DNA of 64,000 bases, from assembly GCA_027923505.1 (NCBI GenBank), contig BROI01000016.1, forward strand, positions 62,001-126,000. Direction: 5' to 3'. The notes under the pieces are model-generated. The model was given only the letters and a program-made list of their open reading frames with translations. It was not told the origin of the DNA and ran no database searches. Numbering within the stretch: the first letter of the stretch is position 1; each line of letters begins with the position of its first letter. The position numbers were made by a program, and so were the translations under genes. This document shows, piece by piece, positions 32,807 to 48,806 of the stretch. This DNA is from Mayamaea pseudoterrestris (taxonomy: Eukaryota; Bacillariophyta; Bacillariophyceae; Sellaphorales; Sellaphoraceae).

Positions 32807-32907
32807 ATGCGTCTCTATCAAGCATCCGCTTGCTTGCTTTTCGCCTCGCAGCTGCAGTCCACGGCATGCTCGTCGGACGTTCAGTCCACCATTGTTTCGG
32901 CGACTGG

Positions 32908-32943
<36 letters not shown>

Positions 32944-35900
32944 AGAAGCATCGTCGGTCTACGAGTCGCTAAAGGAAGCAAAGAAGAATGTCTCGTCGTC
33001 GGCATCAGCAGCAGCAGCATCAGCAGCAGCAGCAGCATCGAGCATTGATCATGGAAAGGCAATGATTGATTGGATTCGAGCGCATGGAGGCTTTGTCCAC
33101 GAGAGTCTTTACATTGGTCCCATTACTTCAGACGATAGTTTGAGTAGCATTGGGGAAGGCAAGGTGGAGCATTCATATAACAATACTCCCTACGGCTTGT
33201 TTACTCGCGACACTCTCCCTGTAGGCACGACGATTCTCCAAATTCCATACGAATTGACGATTCACACGCATGCCGACAAGGACTTTGATCAATGCGAAAC
33301 GGCGCGCAAATTGCACAAGGAGCTAATCAAAGGAGCCGATTCCTTTTATGCTCCATACGTACAATACTTGAGTGAGACGCAAACCAAAGGGCAAGTGCCG
33401 ACGCTTTGGAGCGCTGCCGGCAATCAGCTATTGAAGGATTTGCTGCGGCACAATGACAACGACGAAACGATTGCGCTGCCGCCCTACGACGTTTCTTCGT
33501 GGGAATACTTGGATGTTTGTCAAGCTTCACCGGAGGAAGAGTTCGCCTTGGAGCTATTGCGCTACCGCGGCTGGGACGAAGTCTTGGTTCCAGTCTACGA
33601 CATGATGTCGCACTCCAACGATCCAAATGTAATGAACACGGCATCGTCCAAGATTATGCGCAACCTTGACAAGGAGCCCATTGTTGTCAAGACAGTGTTG
33701 GAGGTGTCTGCAAAGTCGCAACTCTATTGCTCCTACAATGACTATACTGGCTCGCAAAACCTGAATGAATGGTATGGTACGCCTGGTTTGCTCATTGATT
33801 TTGGTTTTGTTGAATCGCTGCCACAAAGATGGTTCTTTGACCAGGATCGCTGGAATGCGGAAGGATTTTTGGACGAGGACAATTATTTCGAGGAACATGC
33901 GGCCATTAACTTTGAGCTGTCCAAATCGACCGTCAATGGAGAAGTGGTCGTCACGTGGATGCACGAGGATTTGCGGGAGATTGACGTGCTGTTTGCTCGC
34001 GAAGCACTGGAACATTTGAAGAGTTTTGGCTCCATGCGTCTGCAGAGTCGTCCCGAAGGAGTCTTGGAGCGAGAGTTCAACATGATCAAGGAGTACGGAG
34101 CGGCCATGCAATTTGCTCTCGAAACGGCATTGTATCAACACTTTTACGACCCGTTGCTCTTTGGCTCAGCCGATACATACAGCAATATCAATGAAGAGCT
34201 ATATTCGGAGGATCGGCACTACACTTGCGATCACATTCAGTCGCATTCATTCCACGGGCATGAAACGCTTGAAAAGGTTGTTTCACACTATCAGCGACTC
34301 GAATTTGATGTGCATCCAGAGACGCGCGAAACATGCTTTTGGCTCGACATGTACGTTCAGCAGTGCACTTCGTATCGGCCGCATTATCATGAGGTTGCCA
34401 TTCACTACACGGCTCGATATTTGGATAAGGTGCAGCGAATCGCGTGGATTGGTGGCGGCGACTCCATGCTTCTGCATGATGCGTTAAAATATCCGACACT
34501 GGAACTGGCGCTCGGATTGGAGCTGGATCAAAAGGTAACACGCTACAATTACAAGTACATGGGATCGCAGCCACACTATGATAACGACAAGGTGCAATGG
34601 TGGTATGGCGACGCGACAAAGAGTTTGTTGATGCTTCCTGAGTCATACTTTGGTAGTTTTGACATGGTAGTGATTGACTTGTCAGACACGGCCATGCAGC
34701 TTTCGGTGACTTCGGACTTGAGCATCTTTGCAGCACTCTCCTTGCTGCTTCGACCCGGTGGAATCATGGTAAAGAATGAGGAGTACTTGGAGCAATTCTC
34801 GCGCGTCTTTGACTACACTCTGCAGGCGCACTTTTACGATGTTCCCATAGTTTGCTCGCAATCGTTTATTCTTGGCAGCTACGGTACGGATTTTTTGGCG
34901 ACGAAACCCAAGGACCATGAGCCGTCGGATCTTATGTTTGTCAATCAGCGTCCAGACATTCAAAGCGATTTTGGTATTTGGCATGATTATCGACGCAATA
35001 TTACGCGAACAAATGCCCATTGTCGCGACGACGGTGAGGATGCGACTGCCTCACCAGTGGAGCAAACAACTAGCCCTGGTATTCTCATGGTTGTTGAAGC
35101 CGAAAATGTTACAGCCAACCTTGCGTCAACCATGGCTGTAAAAGAGCTTCTAGTGACGGCGCTTGAGCGCGACGCAAAAATGATAGTGACGGATGCTGTT
35201 GTTCAAGAAGGCTCGGGCGTTATTGGATTGGCGCTTAGAACTGGTTATGTCATCGCCCGAATGTATCCAAAGTACAATTACTGTGCGCTCGACATCCACT
35301 TCTGGAGTAGCTTTGAGTTACAAGAGAGCGTCAAGAAGGTGTTGATTGATGCTCTTGGAGGCGGCATTGTACCGAAGTCCGTCTCTTCCTATCGCATTGT
35401 GGCTGGCGGTATGTTCGGCGTCGATACTTGGAAGGATGACGCAAAGAAGCAAGGTCCGCGCAAGGTGCACGACTGCCAGCGCCAGCAAGAGTCTTTGCGT
35501 GGCCCCTTTACAGATCAGCATAATGTTGATTTGATTATGAAGGAAATGTTGTCGTCGCTGGTGAGCAACGAAGCCAAAAATATGGACGTATTGGTTGTGT
35601 GTGGAGCTGCTGGAGCAGACTGCAAAACTGCCAATACTTTAAAAACGATTTCCACTGTTGGGCAAGTACATGAATTGCGAGCTTGCGATAGCCTCGGTGA
35701 TTACATGAGTATGGAAATTTGCGAGATGCAAACGTTTACGTCATTAGACAAGTTTGCCAAGGCGTCTGTCGAATTCGAGGGCTTTCGCGCTTTGATAATC
35801 GATCCCGAAGCTCCATTAGAGATTATGCAGATTGTCCTGAACCTATTTAAAACTGGAAATATCTGGAAGTACACGAAACAAGAAGGATTTTTGATTCTTG

Positions 35901-36892
35901 CAAACTCCTTGGACCCAACGCTCTCGGCCCGTCGAGCATTTCTTGATCGCTTCCGGAGGGAAACGACTGATCCTGCGTTCCGAGCAGAAGTTTTGTTCAA
36001 TAGCACTGATAGCAGCATGGAAGCTGGACTTTTCCTATATGGCGTTGCTGATGCAGTTGACAAAGTTACCAAGGTTGTCGCCAAGATTGAAGCGGACACT
36101 GGTCTTGTTTCTGAAATGCGAAACATTGCTGGCGGCATGTTCCGTTATCAGTACGATTTTGATCCGGCTCAAGTTTACAAGCATAGTGACTTTGACATGA
36201 CGGACGTGCTAGCGCAATGGCAATCGCAGCGGCCTACTGGCTTTCAGTCAATATTTCAGTTTGTCAAGCTGACTCCGGAGGAGCAACTGGACGTTCACGA
36301 CAAGGTTATGATATTCTATCCAGCCGACGAACAGTGGTATCCAGGCAAGGTCGTTTGGGTTCATCCTGCGGACGATACCGTTGACGTTCGTTACGACAGT
36401 GGCGATATTGGTAAGGGTGTTTCATCTAGGCTGATTAAGAAGGATGCGAGCGACACTGCCGCGTCCAAGGATGCAAGCAGCAAGAACACTGACATGATTA
36501 CGGCCGAAGGAATCCGTGACGCATTGCAGTTCGCCCTCACCGAAACCAACTTTGAGGGAATGGAGGAAGCCAAAGTGCACCACTATGTTGGCCCCGGAGA
36601 AGGATCGTTGACCATGGCGTTTTGGTCTGGCGGAAATGCCGTGGCACTATGGGACGGCCGTAGTCACATTGATGTTAACTTGTTTACATACACCGAAAGC
36701 GTGACGGTTGCTGATTCTGTTCAAGAATTGTTCAAAAAGCGCATACCTTTTTTGAAGACTGCACTCCGTGACGAGCAGCCCCGCGGATATGGACGCGTAG
36801 TAAACTACATGCGCGACGTGGAAGAATACAAGGACGACGTTCCTGTGTGGGCCTTGCATTTTAGTGATAAGGCAGAAACGTCGATGGAGTAA
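32807..36892 (+). CDS. Secreted chimera: SET methyltransferase, aminopropyltransferase-like, two SpeD-like and Tudor-like segments
   Basis: Intronless, 1361 residues from ATG 32807 (MRLYQASACLLFASQLQSTA, signal peptide), then a poly-Gln run (~36-46) and Ser/Ala-rich linker. Residues ~86-340 fit a SET domain of the Rubisco-LSMT/SETD3 type: GLFTRDTLPVGTTIL, VPVYDMMSHSNDPN, SQLYCSYND, YGTPGLLIDFGFVE. Residues ~447-700 resemble spermidine synthase: RIAWIGGGDSMLLHDALKYP, LGLELD, WWYGDA, DMVVIDLSDTA. Residues ~759-860 resemble AdoMet decarboxylase (GYVIARMYPKYNYCALDIHFW); ~925-1120 is a further Rossmann-like part starting MDVLVVCGAAGA; ~1165-1212 is Tudor-like (WYPGKVVWVHPADDTVDVRY); ~1229-1340 is a second SpeD-like part (SHIDVNLFTYTES). 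The usual pyruvoyl Ser and Cys are not evident. I recall diatom polyamine-enzyme fusions being proposed for long-chain polyamines; substrate and activity here are inferred. Confidence 0.85.
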
Positions 36893-44036: not shown

Positions 44037-47000
44037 ATGTCTTCGACGAGCAATACTCCGACGACAGGAGCGGCGTCGAGCGGTGGAGGTGCGCCTCCCG
44101 CTCCGCCAGCAAGCGAAGGAAACCGACGCAACCGTCATTATCGTCGTGGGAATCGTGCTGGGAATCGTTCCGGGAATCAAGGCAATGGTAACAGACTCAA
44201 CGGACCGAGTCGTGCGCCGAATGGAAATTTCCAAGGAAGCGAGCCGACGCTCGCTGGATTCATCTTCGACTACAACGGTTCGCGCGATCCCGATGGATTC
44301 ATCCGCACGACGAACGAGATCATCACTTTCGTTGGGCGCTCCTACAAGAAATATACCAAGGAGCTGCTCAAGGGCATGCGCAACGTGGAACTGGAGATTC
44401 CTGACGAGCCTGCGCGTCCAACGAAGGATGCCGACACGACGGACTCGGACTGGTCCATAATGCTCGAGGAATACAAGGCCGACAAGAAGGAGCATGTCGA
44501 GCGCGTGCGTGTGTACTCCGACTTCCTCGCTGGTCTCTACGCCGTGTTGTATGGACAATGCACGGAGCGTATGAAGGATCGTGTCAAGTCGCACGCCAAG
44601 TTCCGAGACGCCGAGGAGGACACGGACGGAATTAAGTTGCTGGCGATTATCAAGGAGATCTCGCATACGTACGAAGGGCGCTGCAAACTTGTGGATCAAG
44701 TCGTGGACATTCAAGCTGAGTTGTTCGGACGTACTCAAGGAGCGCGCGAAAGCCTGCAGAAATATTACGAAAGCATGGTCACGCTCGCAGACGTGGCGAA
44801 GGCGGTTGGCGTCACGATGCACAACGAGATCGTGGCATTGAACATTGCCAAGGATGACAATCGTAACAAGGCGAACAAGGAGGATATCAAGGCCGCCGAA
44901 GAGCTCGAGCTTGCGATGCTTTTCGTGCGTGGCGCAACGGGCGAATACGCTGGGTATTGCAAGCACTTGCGCAACTGCTACCTCGACGGGCACGACAACT
45001 TCCCGTTGACGATCCACGATGCATACAACATCATGCAGCGTCGTGAGCATGCGGATGGAGAAGCCACGTTGCCAACGAACGAGGGCGTGGCGTTTCACAC
45101 GACTGGTACAGCGCGTGACCCTCCTAGATGCTGGACCTGCCAACAGGTTGGTCATGTGCAGCGAGACTGTCCTACGAGAACGGAGTCTACGGAGAGTGCG
45201 CCGGCTGCAGAGGCTAGCGGGGCGCAGCACTTCACGCTGGGTAGCGAGGAAGATAGCGATGACGACGACGAGGTCGGATACATGTTCGCGCAGCCGCCGA
45301 AGGTGAACATCTCGAAGAAGGCTGTGCTCTTGGACAATCAGTCGACAGTGGATCTGTTCTGCAACGCCAAGATGCTGACGAACATTCGCCCGGTGCCAAC
45401 GTGGATGGTGATCAAGTGCAACGCTGGTACAGTAAGGACGAACATGATGGGCGACCTGGAGGGCTACGGTCCGGTGTGGTGGTATCCGCAGGGACTGGCG
45501 AACATTTTGAGTTTGGCGCAAGTCCGAAAGAAGTTTACCGTGGAGTATCTCATGCACGGCGTGGAGCGTCCAATGTTTGTCGTGGAGAAGCCGGACGGTA
45601 AGCAGCGCGAGTTTGTCGAGACTGACTCTGGGCTGTATGTTTGCGAGAGCTTTTCGAAGGGCAAGCGCGGTGATGTCAAGGATGGAGTGGCGATGTTGAC
45701 TACGGTAGACGATAACCGTACTAACTACACCAATGATGACTATTTACGCGCTGTTAGAGCTAGGGAACTGCAAATCAAAATTGGACGGCCAAGCCTCAAG
45801 GATTACCTGCGTATCGTTACTAGCAATCAGTTGCCGAACTGTCCTGTGACGAAAGCCGACATCCTGGCTGCTGAGCACATCTTTGGACCAGATGTTGGCT
45901 CGTTAAAAGGAAAGACGACGCGTCGCGCGTCGCATCTGGTGAAGCCAGCGATTGTTGAGCAACTTCCACCGGCTATCATGAGTCGCTATCGAGACGTTAC
46001 TCTTTGTGCAGACATCATGTATATCAATAAGGTCCCTATGTTGGTGACGTTCTCCCGCAGCATTCGTTTTGCTACGGTCGAGGTGATTCAAAACCGTACG
46101 CTTCCGGTTATGTTGAAGGCAATCGAGTCTGTGTTGAAGATTTACGCACGCGGTGGGTTCCGTGTCGTCGCGGCTCTGATGGATGGGGAGTTTGCTCCCA
46201 TGCTGGGCGCGTTGGCTGATCTCGGAGTAGCGCTCAATGCGACGTCTGAGGATGAGCACGTTGGCGAAATCGAACGTTTTATCCGTGTCGTGAAGGAACG
46301 GGTGCGAGCGACATACAACACGTTGCCGTTTAAGCACGTGCCAGCACGCTTGGTTATCGAAATGACGAAGTCTGCCGTGTTTTGGTTGAATGCGTTTCCG
46401 CACGAGCGTGGCATTTCGAAGGATCTCAGTCCACGCACCATTGTGACTGGTCAGACAGTTGACTTTAATCGGCATTGCAAGTATGAATTCGGTCAGTATG
46501 TGCAAACGCATGAGTCGCACAGCAATGACATGCAGGCGCGCACGATTGGTGCGCTGGCTCTGCGCCCGACTGGTAATGTGCAGGGCGGGTTTTATTTCCT
46601 CAGTTTGTCTTCGGGGAAAATTCTGAATCGTGGCCACGCTACGCCTTTGCCCATGCCTGATGATGTCATTGAACGCGTGCACCGTCTCGCTCGTCAACAG
46701 AAGGCTAATCCGGGCATCGTGTTCATGGACCGCCACCGTGTTGCGGAGGCTGCTGAGCCCGTCATGTGGCACGATGATGACGACGCGGATGATGATGACT
46801 CTGATTACGATGACGACGCTTCTCGCGGCGACGACGACTCTGCCGGCGGAAGCGAAGGAGTGAATGCGACCGATGACGATGACAGCGACGACGACGCTGG
46901 TGCTGACGGCGCAATCGAAGGAGTGCCGGGCGATGAGGCTGGTGATGGTGAGGCCATTGACGATGAACGTGACGACGCGCCGGCCGTGGATGATGGCGAA

Positions 47001-48806
47001 ATTGAAGGAGTGCCCGATGAAGGCGAAATTGAAGGAGTGCCAGCTGCTGCAGACGAAGAGGATTTCGATGCGCGCTATGGCCCACGCACTGGTCGGTATG
47101 GCCTGCGTGCACGCAGACCTCGATCGTTCGCTCATTTGTTCACGCTCGACGCTGCAGAGGAAGTGTCGGAGCCACTCGTCACGGCACAGATGAACATGCG
47201 ACAAGGTTTAAAGGCTTTTGGCGATGCTGGAGTGGAGGCAGTGCGCAAGGAAATGCAGCAGCTACACGACAGGCACGTCATGAAGGCAGTCCCCCAGTGC
47301 ACTCTGACTCCGCAGCAGCGCAAGGACGCGCTGGCGTATTTGATGTTTCTCAAGCGCAAGCGATGCGGGACTGTGAAGGGACGCGGATGCGCAGATGGAC
47401 GCAAGCAACGCGCATACACTGCAAAGGAAGACGCAGCATCTCCAACGATAGCGACAGAGGCCATATTTCTGACGGCTATCATTGACGCTATGGAAGGGCG
47501 CGAGGTTGCTGTGGTCGATGTACCGGGCGCTTTCATGCAAGCGGAAATGGATGAGTTGGTGCACGTTCGTTTCACTGGAAAGATGGTGGAGCTACTGTTG
47601 GAAATTGATCGCGAGATGTACGAGCCTTGCGTCACAATGGAGAATGGCGAGAAAGTCATGTACGTCGAATTACTCATGGCGCTTTATGGTACGCTTCGCG
47701 CAGCGCGACTATTCTGGGAGAAGTTGTCTGCAAAATTGCTTGAGTGGGGCTTTGAGAAGAACCCGTACGATCCGTGTGTGTGTAACAAGATTGTCAATGG
47801 AAAGCAAATCACCGTGGGATGGCACGTGGACGATTTGAAGATTTCACACGTCGACGTGAGCGTAGTGGATGAGTTCATCGCGCAGATGGATGAGGAGTTC
47901 GGCAAGGAGACTCCCATGAATAAGTCACGTGGAAAAGTGCACGACTACCTCGGCATGGTATTGGACTATACTAAGCCTGGAGAAGTAGCAATCAACATGA
48001 TTGACTATGTGAAGAACATCCTTCATCATGCGCCGGACGACATGGATGGAACGGCAGCTACTCCGGCCGCCAGTCACTTGTTTCAGATCTCGGAAAATCC
48101 AGTCATGTTGAGCGAAACAAAGAAGCAGATTTTTGTGACGATTGTGATGCAGTGTCTGTATCTGAGTCAGCGAGCGCGACCGGATATTCGCACAGCGATT
48201 TCTTTCTTGAGCACGAGGCTGCAGCAGCCTGACGAAGACGACTATAAGAAGGCTGCAAGAGTGATTAAATATTTTTGGGAAGCGTGGATATGGTGTTGAC
48301 GCTGAAGGCGGACCAGTCCGGGATAGTCCAGTGGTGGGTGGATGCGTCGTACGCGGTACACCCAGACATGAAGGGTCACACTGGTGGAACAATGACACTT
48401 GGTCAAGGATCAGTGTACAGTACGTCGGCTAAACAGAAGTTGGTAACAAGAAGCTCGACGGAGAGTGAGGTCGTGGGAGTTCATGATGTGCTACCGCAGT
48501 TGCTGTGGAGGGATATTTTTCAGGGGGGTTTGGGGGCAGACGTGTATCAAGACAATATGAGTTCAATGCTGTTGGAAAAGAATGGCAGAAGCTCAAGTAC
48601 AAAGCGCACGCGACACATGAATGTTCGGTACTTCTTTGTGAAGGATCGCGTGGCTGCTGGTGAAGTCAACATTGAGCATTGCCCGACCGGAGACATGGTC
48701 GCGGATTTCTTTACGAAACCATTGCAGGGAGCCCAGTTTGGAAAGCTCCGCAACCTGGTTATGAATCTGGCCTCGAGCAGTAAGTACTACTCGGACCAAA
48801 GGAGTG
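44037..48806 (+). mobile_element. Gag-Pol coding region of the copia element
   Basis: One long reading region covers most of the interior. In order: Gag of the copia type, CCHC knuckle (CWTCQQVGHVQRDC), protease, integrase, a highly acidic spacer, reverse transcriptase (with the DD catalytic pair in HVDD) and RNase H near the 3' end. Copia order (integrase before reverse transcriptase) rules out Ty3/gypsy. Long antisense frames over this region are shadows. About one break is present in the region. Confidence 0.9.

Follow-up and report, generated by a model that had tools for sequence, protein, structure and literature searches.

The 64,000-nucleotide stretch analysed here (the window) comes from Mayamaea pseudoterrestris, contig BROI01000016.1 of assembly GCA_027923505.1, positions 62,001 to 126,000. 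On its plus strand, between positions 32807 and 36892, a 1361-codon frame runs uninterrupted from ATG to stop. The host is a pennate diatom, and a freshwater one according to the title of its genome paper. The encoded protein joins in one chain a SET domain of the SETD3/LSMT type, an aminopropyltransferase (APT) domain, a first domain resembling S-adenosylmethionine (AdoMet) decarboxylases (AdoMetDC), a middle region and a second, C-terminal AdoMetDC-like domain containing a Tudor-like insert. Because a single chain unites an APT with parts of the AdoMetDC and SET types, it is a further member of the published diatom long-chain-polyamine fusion family, for which a function has already been proposed, and not a new system. 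An original prediction, made from the letters alone, had described a secreted fusion of a SET methyltransferase with polyamine-synthesis folds. The features assigned in the present analysis were as follows.

32807..36892, plus strand: whole single frame, 1361 amino acids (ATG-to-stop open reading frame, ORF, and alignment with relatives)
32807..32872, plus strand: residues 1-22, a possible signal peptide that scores low in this protein (hydrophobicity 1.52 against a threshold of 1.8)
32873..33046, plus strand: low-complexity linker containing a polyGln tract (CAG codons) and stretches rich in Ala/Ser (sequence)
33191..33814, plus strand: SET domain, SETD3/LSMT type, residues 129-336, with Tyr310 kept, SH at the NH motif (268-269) and KS at the GE motif (303-304) (Pfam, profile, alignment)
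34238..34951, plus strand: aminopropyltransferase domain, residues 478-715; the residues checked for donor binding and catalysis are present (Pfam, PDB profile, alignment)
35054..35446, plus strand: first AdoMetDC-like domain, residues 750-880, with Gly813 for the pyruvoyl Ser, Arg818 for His and Trp833 for Cys (Pfam, profile, alignment)
35459..36166, plus strand: conserved middle region, residues 885-1120, containing the part originally predicted as a second Rossmann-like domain (family alignment, profile comparisons)
36209..36271, plus strand: residues 1135-1155, weakly assigned as the beginning of the C-terminal AdoMetDC-like domain (profile comparison)
36272..36451, plus strand: Tudor-like module, residues 1156-1215, seemingly inserted into the C-terminal AdoMetDC-like domain (profile, Pfam, alignment)
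36494..36826, plus strand: residues 1230-1340, completing the C-terminal AdoMetDC-like domain; H-D-N and PRG-GRVV are conserved (profile comparison, alignment)

Relatives were sought with residues 80-1361, scoring the 7998 candidates that shared most words, which resulted in 83 proteins including the query. All 11 relatives whose entries name an organism are diatoms (for some of them confirmed by taxid) and the other 71 entries name none; the host and these 11 of the 82 relatives place the family in diatoms. The best relatives aligned with 99% of residues 80-1361 and were 37-38% identical to the query, and the relatives covering 99% of the query showed identities of 32-38%. Such coverage indicates a real single coding unit and not a chance frame, and the single intronless frame of the original prediction thus stood. 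The search for the same architecture in other organisms also returned, among the 82 relatives, transcript-derived rows such as P0009 (Thalassionema nitzschioides) and P0071 (Stephanopyxis turris), in which SET, APT and AdoMetDC matches lie within one ORF; separate transcripts are therefore disfavoured in those species, the data being theirs and not Mayamaea RNA. A chance ORF or an assembly artefact was ruled out by the long relatives together with the transcript-derived ORFs. Residues were counted in alignment A1, consisting of 45 rows including the query, hand-chosen from the 58 rows of at least 1100 aa, and separately in all 83 rows, which add the 13 long and 25 shorter rows left out of A1. 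Identity between the A1 rows and the query is as low as 29-39%.

The APT domain matched Pfam PF01564 (Spermine_synth) with E 1.1e-12 and spermidine synthases in the PDB, and the predicted spermidine-synthase-like domain was borne out, with the checked active-site residues in place. The residues Asp131, Glu151, Asp182, Asp201 and Tyr106 of AtSPDS, whose donor-binding or catalytic roles are described in passages of PMC6514230, were transferred through motif alignments to other spermidine synthases and correspond to D552, E572, D602, D624 and Y527 of the query, so these residues for decarboxylated-AdoMet binding and catalysis are kept. D552, E572, D624 and Y527 were found in 45/45 A1 rows and D602 in 44/45 (Asn in the remaining one), with Q518 and H528 likewise invariant (45/45). 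Over the 83 rows the counts were 76 for D552 (6 gaps, one Arg), 81 for E572 (2 gaps), 82 for D602 (one Asn), 83 for D624 and 74 for Y527 (9 gaps). In plant spermidine synthases, methyl transfer sets in once the residue equivalent to D552 is changed to Ile, as stated in part of PMC3725402; the retention of D552 therefore speaks for aminopropyl transfer. Conversion of this domain to a methyltransferase like plant PMT was excluded, with Asp552 kept and the Gln79 and Val106 positions occupied by His528 and Leu555 and not by Thr. Spermidine synthases (PDB 1xj5, 2e5w and others), which are stand-alone enzymes, resemble the Mayamaea APT in sequence and active-site residues; they differ from it in having GGGDG where it has GGGDS, and from the family in that the AtSPDS Asp204 position is Glu in 41/45 rows.

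The SET domain, including its LSMT/SETD3 type, was also correctly foreseen. It matched PF00856 with 23.7 bits against a cut-off of 22.4, and the 45-row profile matched SETD3 (E 8e-9), SETD6 and LSMT in the PDB; a PDB search with the SET piece as a single sequence did not find these three. Tyr310, by LSMT numbering the presumed equivalent of the catalytic Tyr, lies in a column occupied in 58/83 rows, 40 of which have Tyr. The possibility that Phe332 marks a lost catalytic Tyr was dropped, as the same numbering points to the retained Tyr310. The column of the NH-motif Asn is occupied in 59/83 rows, by Asn in 13 and by Ser in 23, as in the query, and the GE motif shows G in 57/83 and E in 45/83 rows (24 gaps each), with K303 S304 in the query. 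By profile the Mayamaea domain is of the same SET type as SETD3, SETD6 and plant LSMT, whereas its NH and GE motifs are altered and it is fused in a probably secretory protein.

The first AdoMetDC-like segment was recovered where it had been predicted, without its catalytic residues. PF02675 matched below the cut-off (E 1.7e-4, 22.3 bits against 25), but the assignment gained support from the profile, which matched an intact AdoMetDC encoded on contig C24 of the same genome; in the PDB the 45-row profile matched AdoMetDC weakly (best E 0.0068). The T. maritima enzyme requires S63, H68 and C83, according to an excerpt of PMC10407285. Among the 83 rows, the pyruvoyl Ser is replaced by Gly in 82 and Cys in 1, the catalytic His column has Arg in 77, His in 5 and Lys in 1, and the catalytic Cys is replaced by Trp in 82 and Leu in 1; the Ser and His columns were verified on the alignment with the intact C24 AdoMetDC, and the Cys column was placed by counting on, as that alignment ends earlier. 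An active AdoMetDC in this part was ruled out by the lost Ser, His and Cys equivalents, and, with the pyruvoyl Ser and catalytic Cys gone, the domain should therefore not make decarboxylated AdoMet, judging from its sequence. To class 1b AdoMetDC (SpeD) of the T. maritima type it is thus related by a remote sequence match and differs in the loss of the Ser63, His68 and Cys83 equivalents.

The second predicted AdoMetDC-like segment was seen only by profile-profile comparison with the first (probability 21-24%), with a score of 25.4 against a best of 16.6 in 40 column shuffles (0/40 as high), and it gave no significant match to the AdoMetDCs of the same genome (best E 0.17). No catalytic AdoMetDC motif was seen in this part, which is not confidently mappable onto AdoMetDC. 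Near the family C-terminus, the DxxPRGxGRVV residues (1322-1332, window 36770-36802) are strongly conserved. Between the two segments, the predicted second Rossmann-like part (~905-1115) received no sequence support: it scored no better than shuffles against the APT profile (9/40 as high) and had no match to the APTs of two fusions encoded on contig C12 (the fusion on C24 being represented by its AdoMetDC part alone). A second APT-like Rossmann domain was therefore dropped, at the sequence level.

The Tudor-like module itself was upheld, its place apparently being inside the C-terminal AdoMetDC-like part and not, as predicted, before it. Pfam matches of the module alone were weak (Agenet E 0.043, TUDOR E 0.16). 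A profile made from inserts located in the SET domain of relatives matched it with E 7.6e-11 in a search of the 83 proteins, and in the relative P0008 Pfam places Tudor_5 at the corresponding C-terminal position (whole-protein E 1.6e-8); this profile and the matches in relatives mark the module as Tudor-type. It replaces a short loop of module-less relatives just after a conserved QxIFQLE stretch, probably the first strand of the C-terminal AdoMetDC-like domain, and it looks like an insert within that domain, as far as the domain is real.

Two Tudor sites thus occur in the family. Inserts of at least 60 residues were present at the SET site in 16/45 and at the C-terminal site in 9/45 A1 rows, 2 of those having both. 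At E < 0.01, the SET-site and C-site profiles matched at their own sites in 17/83 and 20/83 rows, respectively, counts with some circularity in them; tested on the opposite site, the SET-site profile matched at the C-terminal site in 18/83 and the C-site profile at the SET site in 15/83, fragments lacking the SET part being unable to reveal a module there. P0029 and P0051 carry two tandem Tudor-like copies at the C-terminal site, and P0069, P0081 and P0082 have long inserts there. On a FastTree tree of all 83 rows, with the Tudor columns excluded, the root not known and P0069 counted as a C-site row by hand on its 137-residue insert, the C-site state required 6 changes and the SET-site state 2 (among rows of at least 1100 aa). 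The query grouped with C-site rows (clade of 4 rows, support 99), and P0027 belonged to a 19-row clade (support 99) in which 15 rows have the SET-site module and the other 4 are 751-920 aa long. P0027 is MPSEU_000574600, encoded with 100% identity on Mayamaea contig C10 (1,067,527 bases). With their different clades and different Tudor sites, the two Mayamaea proteins are therefore, on this tree, separate paralogues carrying the module at different sites. They have the domain chain in common and have kept the APT residues and lost the AdoMetDC residues alike; they differ in sequence (39% identical residues in the main stretch that matches), in clade and in the position of the Tudor module, which lies in the SET domain of P0027.

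Secretory features were assessed with a home-made crude leader score, the best 10-residue hydrophobicity within the first 35 residues, with a threshold of 1.8. Of the 43 A1 rows starting with Met (2/45 rows do not), 36 reached the threshold; the predicted signal peptide of the query falls short of it. Fourteen columns have Cys in at least 36/45 A1 rows, and 12 of them are kept in the query. The pair at positions 313/316 is complete in 40 rows, absent from 5, the query among them, and reduced to one Cys in none. The conserved pattern would fit a disulphide-bearing lumenal protein.

A scan of the genome (30.6 Mb, 41 contigs) revealed Spermine_synth matches on C3 (two places), C14 (three close pieces), C24, C12 (two places), C10 and C16, the last being the query. 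AdoMet_dc matches were located on C24 and at two places on C12, each adjoining APT parts, and the APT matches on C3 (two places) and C14 had no such neighbour; a eukaryotic AdoMetDC match (PF01536) was found on C38. The C24 AdoMetDC keeps Ser, His and Cys, its motifs having been read by eye. Compared with it, the motifs of the C12 AdoMetDC-APT fusions L018 and L019 look damaged in different ways: by reading, the His of L019 is replaced by Arg, whereas in L018 the Cys is missing, as is the Glu that precedes the Ser. A SET-like stretch after the APT of L019 had no Pfam match and is not claimed.

The abstract of Michael 2011 (FEBS Lett 585:2627) reportedly mentions signal peptides, dead AdoMetDC in some of the diatom fusions and Tudor in one. 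Passages of PMC3820600, PMC12029483 and PMC4483651, citing that work, already describe diatom APT/AdoMetDC/SET fusions with a proposed role in long-chain-polyamine synthesis, and PMC6356823, which also cites it, is consistent for the parts it mentions; such machines, according to a passage of PMC4483651, dimethylate silaffins and transfer aminopropyl units onto them. As given in excerpts of the respective papers, the genes were not found in a silicifying haptophyte and may be diatom-specific (PMC4742977), 32 APT fusion proteins of Nitzschia inconspicua need further study (PMC12803844, December 2025) and an APT/AdoMetDC fusion was upregulated in Entomoneis under aluminium (PMC12533330). The main text of PMC3478156, on the silicon response of T. 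pseudonana, contained no aminopropyl, spermidine or methyltransferase term. The caution in the original prediction that the architecture might already be described is justified at the family level by the passages of the citing papers; the same domain order including a Tudor in the C-terminal part was not found among the papers listed in the literature searched, which did not include Michael 2011. One listed paper, PMC3145265, contains diatom and SET-domain terms and a single instance of Tudor. The fusions of that work, as portrayed in those passages, have the APT, AdoMetDC-type and SET parts and the proposed role in common with the Mayamaea protein, which carries its Tudor module in the C-terminal part, whereas the Phaeodactylum relative P0011 has it in the SET domain. 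As far as we have seen, the live- and dead-domain counts over 83 proteins, the two Tudor sites, the paralogue pair and the Tudor as an insert go beyond the accounts of the citing papers.

We put at about even the chance that the query works in the secretory pathway as an aminopropyltransferase belonging to the diatom long-chain-polyamine fusion family; on this account it would be a lumenal aminopropyltransferase, and perhaps an N-methyltransferase as well, for silica polyamines. Decarboxylated AdoMet would come from other cell enzymes, such as the intact C24 AdoMetDC beside its APT and the eukaryotic AdoMetDC on C38. The APT part would add aminopropyl units to a polyamine, either free or bound to silaffin lysine, and the SET part, if still active, would N-methylate the chain or a lysine using AdoMet. 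The Tudor module may retain the methylated amine, either as product or as acceptor, and so favour repeated rounds, and the dead AdoMetDC-like domains may serve as dimer, regulatory or binding modules. Comparable non-catalytic partner domains are the N-terminal domain of human spermine synthase, which we take to resemble AdoMetDC, and the T. brucei AdoMetDC prozyme, proteins that have no SET or Tudor parts and are not secretory. The former serves for dimerisation (in a passage of PMC11203672) and the latter activates AdoMetDC (in a passage of PMC5201418). The silica-polyamine link of the original prediction remains reasonable, with the proposal already made for the family and the APT site kept, and it is weakened by the dead first AdoMetDC-like domain, the diverged SET and the unsupported second Rossmann-like part.

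Several observations weigh against this function. At the polyamine-binding Asp204 position of AtSPDS, Asp occurs in 3 A1 rows (the query included) and Thr in 1, beside the prevailing Glu, and no clear counterpart of AtSPDS Tyr270 was found in the 45-row alignment. The SET domain of the query is devoid of the NH Asn, the GE motif and the Cys pair 313/316, so methyl transfer may be lost in this copy. The leader score of the query is among the 7 of 43 that fail, and the threshold is also exceeded within the protein, by 56 of 1226 internal stretches. Moreover, AdoMet and decarboxylated AdoMet would both have to be present in the lumen.

The same domains could instead modify protein, with the APT and SET acting on silaffin lysines so that the polyamine is built on the protein and not free, a branch that the Michael 2011 abstract is said to propose for fusions with dead AdoMetDC. 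The SETD3/LSMT type of the SET, which normally acts on protein, the usual binding of methylated protein residues by Tudor modules and the dead first AdoMetDC-like domain all favour this explanation. However, the SET match covers the fold only and the APT active site resembles that of free-polyamine enzymes, and we regard it as possible, although clearly less probable than a secretory-pathway aminopropyltransferase. It is improbable that the protein is a pseudoenzyme or matrix component binding AdoMet-like ligands or polyamines without catalysis: the first AdoMetDC-like domain has no catalytic residues, the second has no such motif and the SET is diverged, but the APT catalytic residues are near-perfectly conserved across rows as distant as those of A1. 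Least probable is a silica-independent, ordinary production of thermospermine or spermidine, which is favoured by His528 at the AtSPDS Gln107 position (74/83 over all rows, with 9 gaps), where a plant thermospermine synthase also has His (in a passage of PMC6514230), but for which the APTs on C3 and C14 could provide and which the hydrophobic N-termini and many conserved Cys, suggestive of a secretory path, do not favour.

In the surroundings, 10 of the 18 other window ORFs of at least 220 aa were scanned with Pfam, giving kinase, GNAT, TCP-1, AAA, ABC, FTR1-like and copia-type matches and three ORFs without a match; none of the matches was polyamine-related. The copia-type retroelement, a frame of 1420 aa that matches RVT_2 and a zinc knuckle, lies about 7 kb downstream (window 44037-48296, plus strand). 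Just after the leader of the query (window 32912-33046) there is a run of 10 Gln encoded by CAG codons, together with Ala/Ser-rich codon runs, whose length may differ between strains. Runs of at least 6 Gln within the first 150 residues were found in none of the other 82 rows.

The protein bears on how diatoms synthesise long N-methylated silica polyamines. For the secretory-pathway aminopropyltransferase proposed here, catalysis is worth testing in the APT and perhaps the SET, and not in the first AdoMetDC-like domain, and assays of the family must supply decarboxylated AdoMet. The different Tudor sites of two paralogues in one genome are usable for swap experiments. A more far-reaching version, to which we give little credence, is that the family forms a secretory read-write polyamine assembler, with the APT and SET as writers. 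The two retired AdoMetDC folds would then sense the substrate or decarboxylated AdoMet, with the near-invariant Gly replacing the cofactor Ser in the first, and a Tudor reader at either of the two sites would hold the methylated amine and so make growth of the chain processive and length-controlled. If this were true, species-specific chain length could be tuned by where the Tudor modules sit and how many there are.

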